The translations under genes were made by a program, and so were the position numbers. DNA of 64,000 nt. It comes from Microbacterium sp. Nx66. Its GTDB lineage: Bacteria > Actinomycetota > Actinomycetes > Actinomycetales > Microbacteriaceae. The stretch is from the NCBI RefSeq assembly GCF_904066215.1, contig NZ_LR880474.1, positions 1,116,001-1,180,000 on the forward strand. The letters are read 5' to 3'. The notes beneath the pieces are model-generated. The model searched no databases. It was not told the DNA's origin and worked only from the letters and a program-made list of their open reading frames with translations. Below are positions 10,665 through 15,140 of this stretch, piece by piece (the first letter of the stretch is position 1; each line of letters starts with the position of its first letter).

Positions 10665-10822
10665 CGAATCGCTGGCGTGTCTTGTCCGTGGAAAACGCCC
10701 GGGCGGTCGTACCTTCAAGGCATCGGGCAAGGCGCCCGGTCGGGTCGGCCTCAGGTTCGCGACTCGTGACCCCCTGGTCGACTCGTTCGAATAGCCGGGA
10801 ATCCCCGGGTCGGGAGTGGGTC

Positions 10823-12205
10823 GTGACCACACGTTCAGCGCAGCAGTCCACCAGCACCGCGCAGCAGTCCACCCGTCAGACGACGAGACAGGCCGCGGCC
10901 GCAGAACCCGATCAGGATCTGCGCACCTACGTCCTCGACACCTCGGTCCTGCTGAGCGATCCGCAGGCGCTCTTCCGCTTCGCGGAGCATTCCGTGGTGC
11001 TCCCGGTGGTCGTCATCACCGAACTCGAGGGCAAGCGGCACGACCCGGAGATCGGCTACTTCGCCCGCCAGGCGCTGCGTCACCTCGACGACCTCCGCGT
11101 CGAGCACGGCCGCCTCGACTTCCCGGTGGAGGTCGGCGAGGGCGGCACCCTCCGCGTGGAGCTCGGCAACGCCGACCTCTCGGTGCTCCCGGCCGGCATC
11201 CGCCTCAGTGACAACGACAGCCGCATCCTCTCCGTGGCGATGCACCTCGCGCAGGACGGCCAGGACGTGACCATCGTGTCGAAGGATCTCCCGATGCGGG
11301 TGAAGGCCGCGTCCCTCGGGCTGCGTGCCGAGGAGTATCTCGCGGAGCAGGCCGTCGACTCGGGCTGGACGGGTATCGCCCCCCTCGACCTCTCCGGCGA
11401 TGACATCAGCGACCTCTATGAGAGCGAGGTCGGGATCAGTGAGGACGTGCACGGGCTCCCCGTCAACACCGGCCTCATCATCCACTCCGAGCGCGGATCG
11501 GCCCTCGGTCGGGTCACCGGCGACGGCGAGTTCCGGCTCGTCCGCGGGGACCGGGACATCTTCGGCATGCACGGGCGCTCCGCCGAACAGCGCATCGCGA
11601 TCGATCTGCTCCTCGACCCCGAGGTGGGCATCGTGTCGCTGGGCGGACGCGCGGGCACCGGCAAGTCCGCGCTGGCGCTGTGCGCGGGTCTGGAGGCCGT
11701 GCTGGAGCGGCAGCAGCAGAAGAAGATCATCGTGTTCCGTCCGCTGTTCGCCGTCGGGGGCCAGGAGCTCGGATACCTCCCGGGCGACCAGGGGGAGAAG
11801 ATGAACCCCTGGGGCCAGGCGGTGTACGACACCCTCGGCTCCGTCGTCTCCGGGAACGTCATCGACGAGGTCGTGGAGCGCGGGTTGCTGGAGGTCATGC
11901 CGCTCACCCACATCCGCGGACGGTCCCTGCACGACGCCTTCGTGATCGTGGATGAGGCGCAGTCCCTGGAGCGGAACGTGCTGCTCACGGTGCTCAGCCG
12001 GATGGGCCAGAACTCCCGGGTGATCCTCACCCACGACGTCGGGCAGCGCGACAACCTCCGTGTCGGTCGGCACGACGGCATCGCGAGTGTCATCGAAACC
12101 CTCAAGGGACACGGCCTCTTCGGCCACGTCACGCTGACCCGCTCGGAGCGCTCCGCCATCGCCGCCCTCGTCACGGACCTCCTGGAGGGCGGCGAGCTCA
12201 GCTGA
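10823..12205 (+). CDS. phoH2: PIN-PhoH fusion ATPase/ribonuclease
   Basis: A 460-residue PhoH2-type protein joining an N-terminal PIN ribonuclease domain (about 32-160, starting YVLDTSVLL; acidic residues also in ITELEGK and [11 protein letters not shown]) to a PhoH P-loop ATPase (about 250-455). Walker A is GGRAGTGKS near residue 275, Walker B is FVIVDEAQ near 377. In mycobacteria PhoH2 is an RNA helicase and ribonuclease. The GTG at 10823 has a GGGAGTGGG ribosome binding site; an in-frame open extension to 10682 lacks similarity and could hold the counterpart of the small mycobacterial phoAT gene, which I cannot confirm. Confidence 0.9.
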
Positions 12206-12552
12206 CCCGATCCGTGCGGGCGGGCTCTGCACGACCCGGGCCCGCCCGCACGATCGCGTCCCGGCCGCACGATCTCGTCCCGCCTGTTGGCCCCACCGGC
12301 CTCTTCGATCGTGCATCCATGTCGGGCTCGTGCACCTGGAGGTCCGGACGTCACGTCACACGAGCGGGTGGATGCACGGTCACGTCGGATACACGATCTC
12401 CCGGATGCACGATCCGACGACAGTGGTGGGTCGATCAGGGGTGTTCCGTCGTGCAGGCGTATCCAGCTCGTGCATCCGTCCCGCGGGCCCTCGGACGTCG
12501 GTAGCGACACCTGCACGATCCTGGTCCGTCGGCCGGCTGCCGGGGCCAGAGG
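12206..12552. repeat. Cluster of dispersed TCGTGCA / GGATGCACGATC motifs (non-coding)
   Basis: About 350 bp without a credible gene between phoH2 and the DUF559 gene. It holds roughly a dozen variants of one motif in both orientations. Examples are GATCGTGCATCC at 12307, GGATGCACGGTC at 12370, GGATACACGATC at 12387, GGATGCACGATC at 12403, TCGTGCAGG at 12449, CTCGTGCATCC at 12467 and CCTGCACGATCC at 12510. The same core appears in the tandem array immediately downstream and on the other side of the DUF559 gene. Confidence 0.75.
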
Positions 12553-12628
12553 GGTCGTGCACGCGGAACGAGGTCGTGCAGGTGGAACGGGGCCGTGCGG
12601 GCGGAACAGGGCCGTGCGGGAGGAACCG
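12553..12628 (+). repeat. Four tandem 19-bp repeats
   Basis: Four units start at 12553, 12572, 12591 and 12610, exactly 19 bp apart. Two read GGTCGTGCACGCGGAACGA and GGTCGTGCAGGTGGAACGG. The other two read GGCCGTGCGGGCGGAACAG and GGCCGTGCGGGAGGAACCG. The array ends three bases before the stop of the convergent DUF559 gene. Confidence 0.85.
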
Positions 12629-12631
12629 CGG

Positions 12632-13468
12632 TCAGACGCGGTCGCGGGCCCGGCGCAGAGCCCCTTCGATCGCAGCCTGGACCATGGGCCAGTCGTGCAC
12701 GACCTGGGCGTAGTCGAAGCGCAGCGTCTCGTACCCGAGTCGCGATGCCGCAGCATCGCGGGAGAGATCGCGGTGGCGCATCTCGGGAGCACCGTGGTGC
12801 TCCCGGCCGTCGACCTCGATGATGAGTCGGCCGTCGACCACGAAGTCGACGCGGCCGACACCGGGGATCGAGACCTGCGTCGCGAGGTGCACGCCGAGGA
12901 TGTGGAGACGGAGGCGCAGGAGGGATTCCAGACCGCTGTCCGCGTCGGAACGGGCGAAGTCCACGAGCCAACGCGCGGACCGGGGCAGCGCGGCGCGGAT
13001 CCGGGCTCGTGACGCGCTGCCGATCAGACCCAGGCGCCAGGCGGACTCGAACGAGACGAAGAACGACTCGTCACCCTCGCAGGCGTGCAGATGCCGGAGC
13101 GCGTCCTCGACAGCCACGATGCCGAACCGGGTGCGTCCCTCGAAATGATGCGGGATGCACCGGCACTCGATGTGCGGGTGCGCGCGGCCGTTGCGCCCGA
13201 GCCAGACGTGCGGCGCATCGCTCTCCGACAGCACCCAGACTCCGTGGGCACGTAGCGCGGTGCCGCAGCTGATGGCCCCTCCGTGGGCAGCCGCCGTGAG
13301 CACCGTCGCGTCGAGGTCGTGGGTGGCGAACACCCCCGCGCGGACCCGATGGATCCGGCCGGCGCGCACCGCGCGGGACAAGGCGGAGCGGGAGATTCCG
13401 AAAGCCCCGAGGTCGCGACCGCGGGCGATGCCTCCGAGACGGTGAACGGTCGAGACGGGATCGAGCAC
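12632..13468 (-). CDS. AbiEi-like winged-helix plus DUF559 (Vsr-fold nuclease) protein
   Basis: A 278-residue two-domain protein. The N-terminus (about 1-60: GGIARGRDLGAFGISRSALSRAV) looks like the winged-helix domain of AbiEi-type antitoxins. The C-terminus (about 175-278) is DUF559, a Vsr/PD-(D/E)XK-like fold with VGRVDFVVD, then RLIIEVDGREHH and YETLRFDYAQV, which provides the D...ExD constellation of a potential nuclease. Such proteins are common and multicopy in Microbacteriaceae, and their function is unknown. No AbiEii toxin partner is adjacent. The 19-bp repeats and their variants flank it on both sides. Confidence 0.8.
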   Translation of the reverse strand: MLDPVSTVHRLGGIARGRDLGAFGISRSALSRAVRAGRIHRVRAGVFATHDLDATVLTAAAHGGAISCGTALRAHGVWVLSESDAPHVWLGRNGRAHPHIECRCIPHHFEGRTRFGIVAVEDALRHLHACEGDESFFVSFESAWRLGLIGSASRARIRAALPRSARWLVDFARSDADSGLESLLRLRLHILGVHLATQVSIPGVGRVDFVVDGRLIIEVDGREHHGAPEMRHRDLSRDAAASRLGYETLRFDYAQVVHDWPMVQAAIEGALRRARDRV

Positions 13469-13693
13469 TCGCCGATTCTGCGTCCTCCGGCGTCACGGCG
13501 GGGGCCGAAGGACGTCGTGGGGACGAGTCGGGATGTCCGGGGATCCGTGGAGGAAGAGTCACCTGCACGATCCGGAGCCGCGGGTAGTCCTGATCCGGGG
13601 ATTCCGTCGTGCAGACGGAACGTGGTCGTGCATCCGAGGTGGGAACCGAGACGGACGGAAAACGGGATCGGAGAACGGGACGGTGCCGGAAAC
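13469..13693. repeat. Right-hand flank of the DUF559 gene with further 19-bp repeat units
   Basis: A non-coding stretch upstream of the DUF559 gene. CCTGCACGATCC is at 13562. CGTCGTGCAGACGGAAC at 13605 and GGTCGTGCATCC at 13624 are again 19 bp apart, matching the left-hand tandem array. No open frame here resembles a known gene. Confidence 0.65.
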
Positions 13694-13733
13694 GACGGAT
13701 GCCGCGGGGACCGAGGTCCTCGCGGCATCCGTC
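13694..13733 (-). terminator. Terminator of the fumC operon
   Basis: An 18-bp stem (one G-U pair) with a CGAG loop lies just beyond the fumC stop on the minus strand. The base of the stem is GACGGATGCCGCG with its exact complement. Confidence 0.75.
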
Positions 13734-13745
13734 TTCGAGCGTGGA

Positions 13746-15140
13746 TCAGCCCGGGTGGGTCATCGACAGCAGGTCGAGCTTCTCGTCCAGCTGCTCGAGG
13801 GTGAGCTCGCCGCGCTCGACGTAGCCGAGGTCGATCACGGCGTCGCGCACCGTGATGCCCTTGGCGACAGAGTGCTTGGCGATCTTCGCCGCGGCTTCGT
13901 AGCCGATGAGCTTGTTCAGGGGCGTCACGATCGACGGGCTCATACCCGCGAAGGCCGCCGCCCGCTCGACGTTCGCCTGCAGGCCGTCGATCGTCTTGTC
14001 CGCGAGCACCCGCGAGGCGTTCGACAGCAGACGGATCGACTCGAGCACCGCGGTGCCCATGACCGGGATGGCGACGTTCAGCTCGAACGAGCCGGAGGCG
14101 CCGGCCCAGGCGACCGTGGCGTCGTTGCCGATGACCCGCGCGCACACCATGAGCACGGCCTCGGGCACGACGGGGTTGACCTTGCCCGGCATGATCGACG
14201 ACCCCGGCTGCAGGTCGGGGATGTGCAGCTCGCCGAGACCGGTGTTGGGGCCGGAGCCCATCCAGCGCAGGTCGTTGTTGATCTTCGTGAGCGACACGGC
14301 GATCGTGCGGAGCGCGCCGGAAGCCTCGACGAGACCGTCGCGGTTCGCCTGCGCCTCGAAGTGGTCCTTCGCCTCGGTGATCGGCAGCTCGGTCTCGGCC
14401 GCGAGCAGCTCGATGACCTTCTGCGGGAATCCGAGGGGAGTGTTGATCCCGGTGCCGACGGCGGTGCCGCCCAGGGGCACCTCGGCCACTCGGGGGAGCG
14501 CCGACTGCACGCGCTCGATGCCCAGACGGATCTGGCGGGCGTAGCCGCCGAACTCCTGGCCGAGCGTGACGGGCGTCGCGTCCATGAGGTGCGTGCGGCC
14601 GGACTTGACCGCGTCCTTCCAGAGCTCCGCCTTGGCCTCGAGCGCGACCGCGAGGTGGTCGAGCGCGGGGATCAGGGTGTCGATGAGCGCCTGGGTGACC
14701 GCGATGTGCACCGAGGTCGGGAACACGTCGTTCGACGACTGCGAGGCGTTCACGTGGTCGTTGGGGTGCACGGTCGATCCGAGGATGCGGCTCGCGAGCG
14801 TCGCCAGGACCTCGTTCATGTTCATGTTCGAGGAGGTGCCGGAGCCGGTCTGGTAGGTGTCGACCGGGAACTCGCCGTCGTGTGCGCCGGATGCGACCTG
14901 GTCGGCGGCCTGCGCGATGGCATCGGCGATGGCGCCGTCGAGGGTGCCGAGCTCCTTGTTGGCCAGGGCGGCGGCCTTCTTGATACGCGCGAGTGCGGCG
15001 ATCTGCGTCGACTCCAGGCCCTTGCCGGAGATCGGGAAGTTCTCCACGGCGCGCTGTGTCTGCGCCCCGTAGAGCGCGTTCACGGGCACTCGCACCTCAC
15101 CCATGGTGTCGTGTTCGATGCGGTACTCGGTGTCGGTCAT
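13746..15140 (-). CDS. fumC: Class II fumarate hydratase
   Basis: A 464-residue class II fumarase that converts fumarate and L-malate in the TCA cycle; it is an iron-independent homotetramer in the cytoplasm. The superfamily signature [11 protein letters not shown] is present near residue 320, as are [18 protein letters not shown] (catalytic His region) and SSNDVFPTS. Length is normal. The ATG at 15140 has a strong AAGGAGGG ribosome binding site and overlaps the carbonic anhydrase stop by four bases (ATGA), placing fumC last in an operon with carbonic anhydrase, DUF4245 and xseB. Confidence 0.96.

Follow-up and report, generated by a model that had tools for sequence, protein, structure and literature searches.

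Ideas on how short palindromic repeats are spread, and on why bacteria retain an enzyme for this, rest, to our knowledge, on one type of enzyme, the RAYTs. TnpAREP is an HUH enzyme that processes single-stranded REP (PMC8266576), syntenic RAYT genes may carry different repeats, a situation termed 'orthoswitch', and bracketing by repeats was proposed to hold the RAYT gene near its substrate (PMC3686654). Other described proteins share parts with the one studied here. AbiEi and Rv2827c each bind inverted repeats of 23 bp upstream of the gene encoding them (PMC7319586), the EDxHD homing endonuclease I-Bth0305I dimerises on nearly 60 bp (PMC3943268), and Caulobacter VsrA was investigated as a predicted enzyme of mismatch repair with a link to cytosine methylation (PMC12907096). 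Among the matches listed in the open-licence literature, no title or abstract opening joined DUF559 with flanking or dispersed repeats. Here we analysed a 64,000-nt stretch of Microbacterium sp. Nx66 (the window), in which a DUF559 gene is bracketed by dyads of a 19-bp repeat, and compared it with other loci and genomes (L and G numbers, respectively).

The DUF559 gene and its predicted protein

The predicted protein scored above the Pfam cut-offs for both DUF559 (PF04480; 34.5 bits, cut-off 20.6) and AbiEi_4 (PF13338; 33.4 bits, cut-off 25), which bears out its sequence-only reading as a DUF559/AbiEi-like nuclease, and a comparison with NCBIfam gave nothing worth naming (one match, E 0.13). 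In an AlphaFold2 model (pLDDT 94.9), an AbiEi-like and a Vsr/EDxHD-like half are predicted (Table 1), with the middle of the protein hardly covered by the fold comparison. Residues E181, D208, E218, D220, H225 and D234, the nuclease-domain acidic residues among them, are kept in 99-100% of 117 DUF559 proteins, and the window protein as modelled appears to combine a Vsr-type fold with these conserved acidic residues. A conserved Cys/His cluster in mid-protein (residues 68, 102, 104, 107 and 130) is possibly a metal site. Past fumC, a near-perfect hairpin with 19-nt arms (95%; 13694-13733) is likely the fumC terminator, and similar GGATGCCGC hairpins lie near DUF559 flanks in other species.

Table 1. 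Features of the DUF559 locus (window positions, or residues of the DUF559 protein)
Feature	Position	Strand	Remarks
PhoH-like gene	10682-12205	+	one neighbour of the DUF559 gene
Third 3' dyad	12228-12334		units - at 12228, 12247, 12266; units + at 12309, 12328
Second 3' dyad	12406-12474		within the 140-bp block missing from LCT-H2, a close relative
3' dyad nearest the stop codon	12512-12618		unit - at 12512; units + at 12555, 12574
DUF559 gene	12632-13468	-	278 aa; between the PhoH-like gene and fumC
Upstream module, degenerate copy	13514-13556	-	between 5' dyad and start codon; read by eye
5' dyad	13564-13632		unit - at 13564; units + at 13607, 13626; near end 96 bp before start codon
fumC	stop at 13746	-	other neighbour of the DUF559 gene
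N-terminal half, AbiEi-like	residues 1-173		predicted; fold match to AbiEi antitoxin 6y8q
C-terminal half, Vsr/EDxHD-like nuclease	residues 176-276		predicted; fold matches

The repeat unit and its dyad geometry

Four tandem 19-bp units had been noted at the 3' end of the gene, and TRF recovered them with a period of 19 and 3.9 copies at 12553-12626; the same motif, also noted on the 5' side, was found there at 13564, 13607 and 13626, with a 19-bp step from the second copy to the third. Between 12206 and 13745 there are 14 exact copies of the core TCGTGCA/TGCACGA, 12 of them intergenic and 2 within the gene, compared to 18 in the remaining 62.5 kb of the window. A weight matrix built from 69 units at loci of the window's genome was used to analyse unit spacing. 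Neighbouring units on the same strand lie 19 bp apart (19 and 13 cases), minus-then-plus neighbours lie 43 bp (15), 24 bp (7) or 62 bp (4) apart, and plus-then-minus neighbours have no preferred distance. This quantised spacing indicates that the repeat is an array of 19-bp units turning round at a fixed centre, with the unit of core TCGTGCA as the arm of a dyad. The sequence-only reading recognised the units but missed this dyad arrangement.

Four dyads surround the gene, one on its 5' and three on its 3' side, compared to one such feature in 617 kb of a reversed-sequence control. The 3' dyad nearest the stop codon, whose tandem units are the four described earlier, has its core at 12512-12580 and degenerate tandem units at 12593 and 12612, and in the third 3' dyad the units at 12247 and 12266 carry one mismatch each. 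An RNA or hairpin reading of the dyads was rejected, since the 5' dyad folded no better as RNA than shuffles (z -0.31) and no Rfam family reached its gathering score in four flanked loci, the only match in the window being a chance one (E 0.19) at the hairpin beyond fumC. Across 51 dyads (distinct up to strand), inner arm positions showed no co-variation (561 of 2000 shuffles reached the observed value), which would favour double-stranded recognition over a hairpin, and outer spacers co-varied weakly (0.60 vs 0.55; reached by 3 of 2000 shuffles). GTAG/CTAC was found in 0 of 51 four-unit dyads, and CGTC/GACG, absent from the consensus, in 38 of 51 when counted regardless of its position in the dyad. 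Dyads of 19/24/19 geometry with the core TGCATGA/TCATGCA, a natural variant of the TCGTGCA class, lie beside DUF559 genes at L043 (5827) and L044 (6843).

Dispersal of the dyad in the genome

In the window's genome, TCGTGCATCC was found 36 times, compared to 8 for the reversed pattern, and the dyad TGCACGA-N36-TCGTGCA 77 times at up to two mismatches (reversed control, 7) and 33 times at up to one (reversed control, 0). The 33 matches group into 19 places, two of which flank the window gene; a repeat confined to this gene was therefore rejected. The dyad is not tied to every DUF559 gene of this genome either: five DUF559 matches were found, and only the window gene is flanked. The other four showed no dyad at up to one mismatch in 3-kb loci, and a single dyad match with two mismatches lies near one of them. 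At E ≤ 1e-60 the genome gave one match, the single gene of this clade.

Placement was examined for 37 dyad clusters in five genomes (G000, G107, G115, G078 and G117), using gene calls from a simple in-house script. Sixteen clusters have convergent neighbouring genes and 14 have tandem ones, no cluster is clearly between divergent genes, and seven could not be placed since a predicted gene overlaps them. REP elements have a similar placement relative to genes. The clusters of the window's genome adjoin many ordinary genes, and an NAD(P)-binding-domain gene (L024, 9190-10542) also lies between two clusters there. A dense array of 11 overlapping dyad pairs (L018, 3270-3585) is found in the same genome, away from its five DUF559 matches.

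Association of dyads with DUF559 genes across Microbacterium

Among 149 Microbacterium genomes, 11 had at least 8 dyad matches and 138 had 0-6, with a median of 2 over all. The flank survey covered all 122 DUF559 matches at E ≤ 1e-60, which fall in 74 of the 149 genomes, with the contig half L150 added; the other 75, lacking such a match, were outside the survey. All 11 dyad-rich genomes have a DUF559 match at this threshold, and dyads stand on both sides of a DUF559 gene in 7 of these 11, compared to 1 of the 63 others (Fisher p 1.4e-6 over 74 genomes). Since a gene's own flanking copies inflate the dyad count, they were subtracted in the seven dyad-rich genomes with a flanked gene, with G136 counted as unflanked, and the difference persisted (Mann-Whitney p 9e-5, 74 genomes). 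These p-values are too small by an indeterminate amount, as species and orthologous genes are not independent. Tests that scored the 75 genomes outside the survey as unflanked (p 1e-9 and 9e-9) were set aside. The sequence-only reading had proposed scanning related genomes for copies beside DUF559 genes, and the link holds there; of the opposing picture that it had raised, a repeat found all over the genome with no tie to DUF559 genes, the first half is true and the second is contradicted by the 7/11 vs 1/63 distribution.

The doubly flanked gene is intact in six dyad-rich genomes (G000, G034, G042, G108, G111 and G133), where 96-108 bp separate the end of the 5' dyad from the start codon and the 3' dyad starts 18-86 bp past the end of the match. 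In the seventh, G078, the gene is split over two contigs, L093 and L150, with one dyad each. The flanked gene of G136, which is not dyad-rich, is at L195; its match covers residues 55-275 and its dyads are of the 62-bp type, and G136 has only two matches of the 43-bp search pattern despite the double flanking. No doubly flanked DUF559 gene was seen among the loci examined from the dyad-rich genomes G107, G115, G117 and G147: G117 has a 3' dyad only, and the other three have no dyad beside the gene of the window's clade, the syntenic DUF559 gene of G107 bearing a different repeat. For ten dyad-rich genomes, 30 of 50 PF04480 matches were obtained as loci and scanned for dyads.

Other DUF559 clades carry other repeats

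We compared the 300-bp flanks on the two sides of each gene for a shared word, with terminator words (GGATGCCGC and the like) masked; an earlier flank comparison had left terminator-type words unmasked. A shared word of at least 14 nt was found for 65 of 119 DUF559 genes, compared to 7 of 281 other genes and 5 of 239 shifted windows, controls that were drawn from the collected loci, many of them chosen as repeat carriers, and not from whole genomes. Shared-word length likewise differed between DUF559 and other genes (Mann-Whitney p 4e-30). In 36 of the 119, no shared word exceeded 11 nt, and some of these bear mismatched dyads (L086, L097). Genes without the TCGTGCA dyads turned out to have other repeats, and reading of the flanks revealed paired inverted-repeat elements whose arms are specific to a clade, such as GTCCCGATCTGC, ACATCTGGCGTGTCGG, GCACAACGGCGGA, GCACAACTTCGGAG and AGAATCGGATCCGC. 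In one DUF559 branch (L234, L233, L224 and L226), clade-specific outer arms enclose a common inner pair like GACACGCCG/CGGCGTGTC.

The site between fumC and phoH offers a comparison at a fixed position, with 23 loci from different species (22 with FumC and PhoH, one with FumC only). Repeats vary between these loci and the two flanks agree within a locus: the summed word length was 366, compared to a mean of 210, and 0 of 10,000 shuffles of the 3' flanks reached it; the own partner flank was strictly best in 13 of the 23. Dyads that were ordinary repeats or terminators gathering in long intergenic regions, with the DUF559 link as a by-product, would account for clusters beside so many ordinary genes in the window's genome and for the further doubly flanked gene at L024. 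Such an origin is nevertheless highly improbable, given that the 281 other genes and 239 shifted windows did not reproduce the pattern with GGATGCCGC words masked, and that at this one site the repeat differs between loci yet matches within each.

The same site bears on mobility. A small transposon made of the gene and its two dyads, with the solo dyads as miniature derivatives, would place the gene between two like elements, as observed, and related DUF559 genes do occur at other sites, each with its own pair; moreover, L289 and L290 have fumC-phoH gaps of 170 and 82 bp with neither gene nor dyad inside. These two came from an empty-site comparison of 28 genomes, in which the other 26 had no PhoH within 1.5 kb beyond fumC. 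Against this, the window's genome holds one gene of the clade at E ≤ 1e-60, and 22 loci, each in a different genome, have both FumC and PhoH in the fetched flanks. The unit as a whole was not seen to recur almost unchanged at different sites, a trait of insertion sequences, in a genome with one match at that threshold. We thus regard a transposon as improbable, and the earlier suggestion of a small mobile unit is weakened. With one clade gene in the genome and a site conserved among species, the window gene looks domesticated, not mobile.

For two of the repeats other than TCGTGCA, whole genomes were searched, and some of the carriers have dispersed copies. GTCCCGATCTGCTGA, at up to one mismatch, was found 28 times in G124, 10 in G107, 5 in G014, 4 in G083 and 2 in G042 (reversed control, 0), with no copy in five other genomes searched; its units lie 19 bp apart, and its recurring centre measures 32 bp between unit starts. 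Exact GCACAACGGCGGA was found 40 times in G097, 8 in G085, 3 in G006, 2 in G072 and once in G034 (reversed control, 0), and recurs as pairs 70 bp apart start to start. It had no copy in seven other genomes searched, G015 and G082 among them, which carry a gene of the GCACAACGGCGGA clade.

Outside the genus, a first test, in which start codons were badly placed, covered 14 loci and yielded p 0.06. In a second test, with a length-limited choice of start codon, a shared word of at least 14 nt was found at 12 of 28 DUF559 loci and at 0 of 26 shifted windows, leaving 16 loci without one at this length; these 28 were the loci obtained from other genera, out of 55 matches listed.

Protein-repeat matching, upstream module and repeat turnover

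Five proteins stand closest to the window protein in a tree of 117, and each of them belongs to the TCGTGCA class. That class has seven members in the tree, which do not form a clade, the smallest clade enclosing them having 37 tips. Over 6216 pairs, protein identity correlated with the sharing of a word by the 5' flank of one gene and the 3' flank of the other (Mantel r 0.17, reached by 0 of 999 permutations), and a word was shared by 4-6% of pairs when identity was below 60% and by 31% when it exceeded 65%. Closer DUF559 proteins thus share repeats more often, and the correlation is weak.

In the stretch that separates the 5' dyad from the start codon, a module is found in most DUF559 genes (e.g. 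L087, L118 and L173), consisting of TYCTSCACA followed 27-29 bp on by TTRTCCACA (TYCTSCACA-N18/19-TTRTCCACA), which is found on the 5' side only. The relaxed word YYCTBCHCA occurs in 78 of 119 5' flanks (250 bp), compared to 2 of 119 3' flanks and 6 of 322 control genes, and TTRTCCACA, which resembles a DnaA box, follows at 27-29 bp in 37 of the 40 genes that matched well. The copy in the window fails the strict pattern.

This one-sided module is among the observations that would suit a protein acting only as an AbiEi-like autoregulator, with the flanking dyads as operators, the dispersed copies as regulon sites or by-products, and the nuclease half in a separate job such as mismatch repair. 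So would the match of residues 1-173 to AbiEi antitoxin 6y8q, the constant 96-108 bp between 5' dyad and start codon, and the binding of inverted repeats before their own gene by AbiEi proteins (PMC7319586). An operator, however, does not explain an equal dyad past the stop codon, and the dispersed dyads lie behind genes, with 16 convergent, 14 tandem, no clearly divergent and 7 unclear placements in the 37 clusters. We consider autoregulation as the sole function unlikely, though the least unlikely of the alternatives weighed here. In a combined form, the DUF559-repeat link could reflect autoregulation together with passive repeat turnover.

Turnover of dyads is visible in an alignment with the close relative LCT-H2. 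The window has an extra dyad-bearing block of 140 bp (12335-12474 in the alignment), which is absent from LCT-H2 and bounded by TGCACGAG words, and each of the two has one 18-nt stretch missing from the other. Dyads come and go between the window and LCT-H2.

Proposed function of the AbiEi-Vsr-like protein

Dyads bracket the DUF559 gene on both sides, and such bracketing recurs across species and clades, with repeats that differ but match internally; three repeats are dispersed in genomes, and the acidic residues of the nuclease domain are conserved. An AbiEi half joined to a Vsr-like half suggests that the protein recognises inverted repeats and cleaves at them. We therefore propose, as the likely reading, that this AbiEi-Vsr-like protein, bracketed by its own dyads, binds them, nicks or cuts them and spreads them in a RAYT-like way. 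The N-terminal half would read the repeat and the nuclease half would nick or cut the dyads, and repair of a cut dyad from another copy, or a copied flank, could then spread units to other intergenic sites. RAYT enzymes are thought to spread REP elements in a like manner. Through the flanking copies, the gene would stay close to its substrate and matched to its repeat, and these copies may double as an operator, as in AbiEi autoregulation. The likeness to RAYT/REP systems put forward in the sequence-only reading gains support from the cross-species link and from the clades having repeats of their own.

More broadly, we lean slightly towards the view that Actinobacteria have a second, independent REP-like system, in which enzymes of the AbiEi-Vsr (DUF559) superfamily each copy their own dyad repeat and enzyme and repeat switch specificity together in place; as part of this joint reading, and with the same slight preference, the enzyme would read tandem double-stranded sites. 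If true, a second type of enzyme with an unrelated nuclease fold would separate the general rules of repeat spread from the accidents of one lineage, and the many natural enzyme-repeat pairs at one chromosomal site would aid such a comparison. The proposal also gives DUF559, a domain of unknown function, a testable role, and the loci provide natural matched sets of DNA-binding domains and target sites.

Comparison with known systems

Among described proteins, Caulobacter VsrA is likewise a DUF559 protein with a Vsr-like domain, and the portion of the paper used here mentions no flanking repeats of the kind seen at our locus (PMC12907096). Unlike the EDxHD homing endonuclease I-Bth0305I and Vsr, the protein studied here is encoded by a free-standing gene between two intact sites; a gene in an intron or intein, or one interrupting its own site, is the trait of homing endonucleases, and here intact dyads were found on both sides. 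The AbiEi antitoxins (AbiE type IV toxin-antitoxin; Rv2827c) share the N-terminal fold and the inverted repeats upstream of their own gene. They differ from the present protein, in which a nuclease is fused and the repeats stand on both sides and genome-wide. Judged from the identity of the neighbours, PhoH-like and fumC in the window and in 22 loci, no AbiEii toxin gene is adjacent.

The closest parallel is with the RAYT/TnpAREP-REP/REPIN/BIME systems ('REPtron'). As in these, a nuclease gene has on its flanks inverted repeats of its own that are dispersed in extragenic space, the repeats differ between syntenic genes, and genomes with the cognate gene are rich in the repeat, apart from some orphans; the gene studied here is flanked by its cognate repeat, which is extragenic and mostly in inverted pairs. 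The enzyme, in contrast, is an AbiEi plus Vsr-like protein and not HUH, and its element consists of tandem 19-bp units arranged as a dyad, with no co-variation between the inner arms. A search for Y1 transposases (PF01797, Y1_Tnp) gave no match at E ≤ 0.001 in the window's genome and was positive in 5 of 14 control genomes. This result and the different fold of the enzyme indicate that the locus is not a RAYT system. The proposed system would be new by descent, and in behaviour it has a known counterpart in RAYT-REP.
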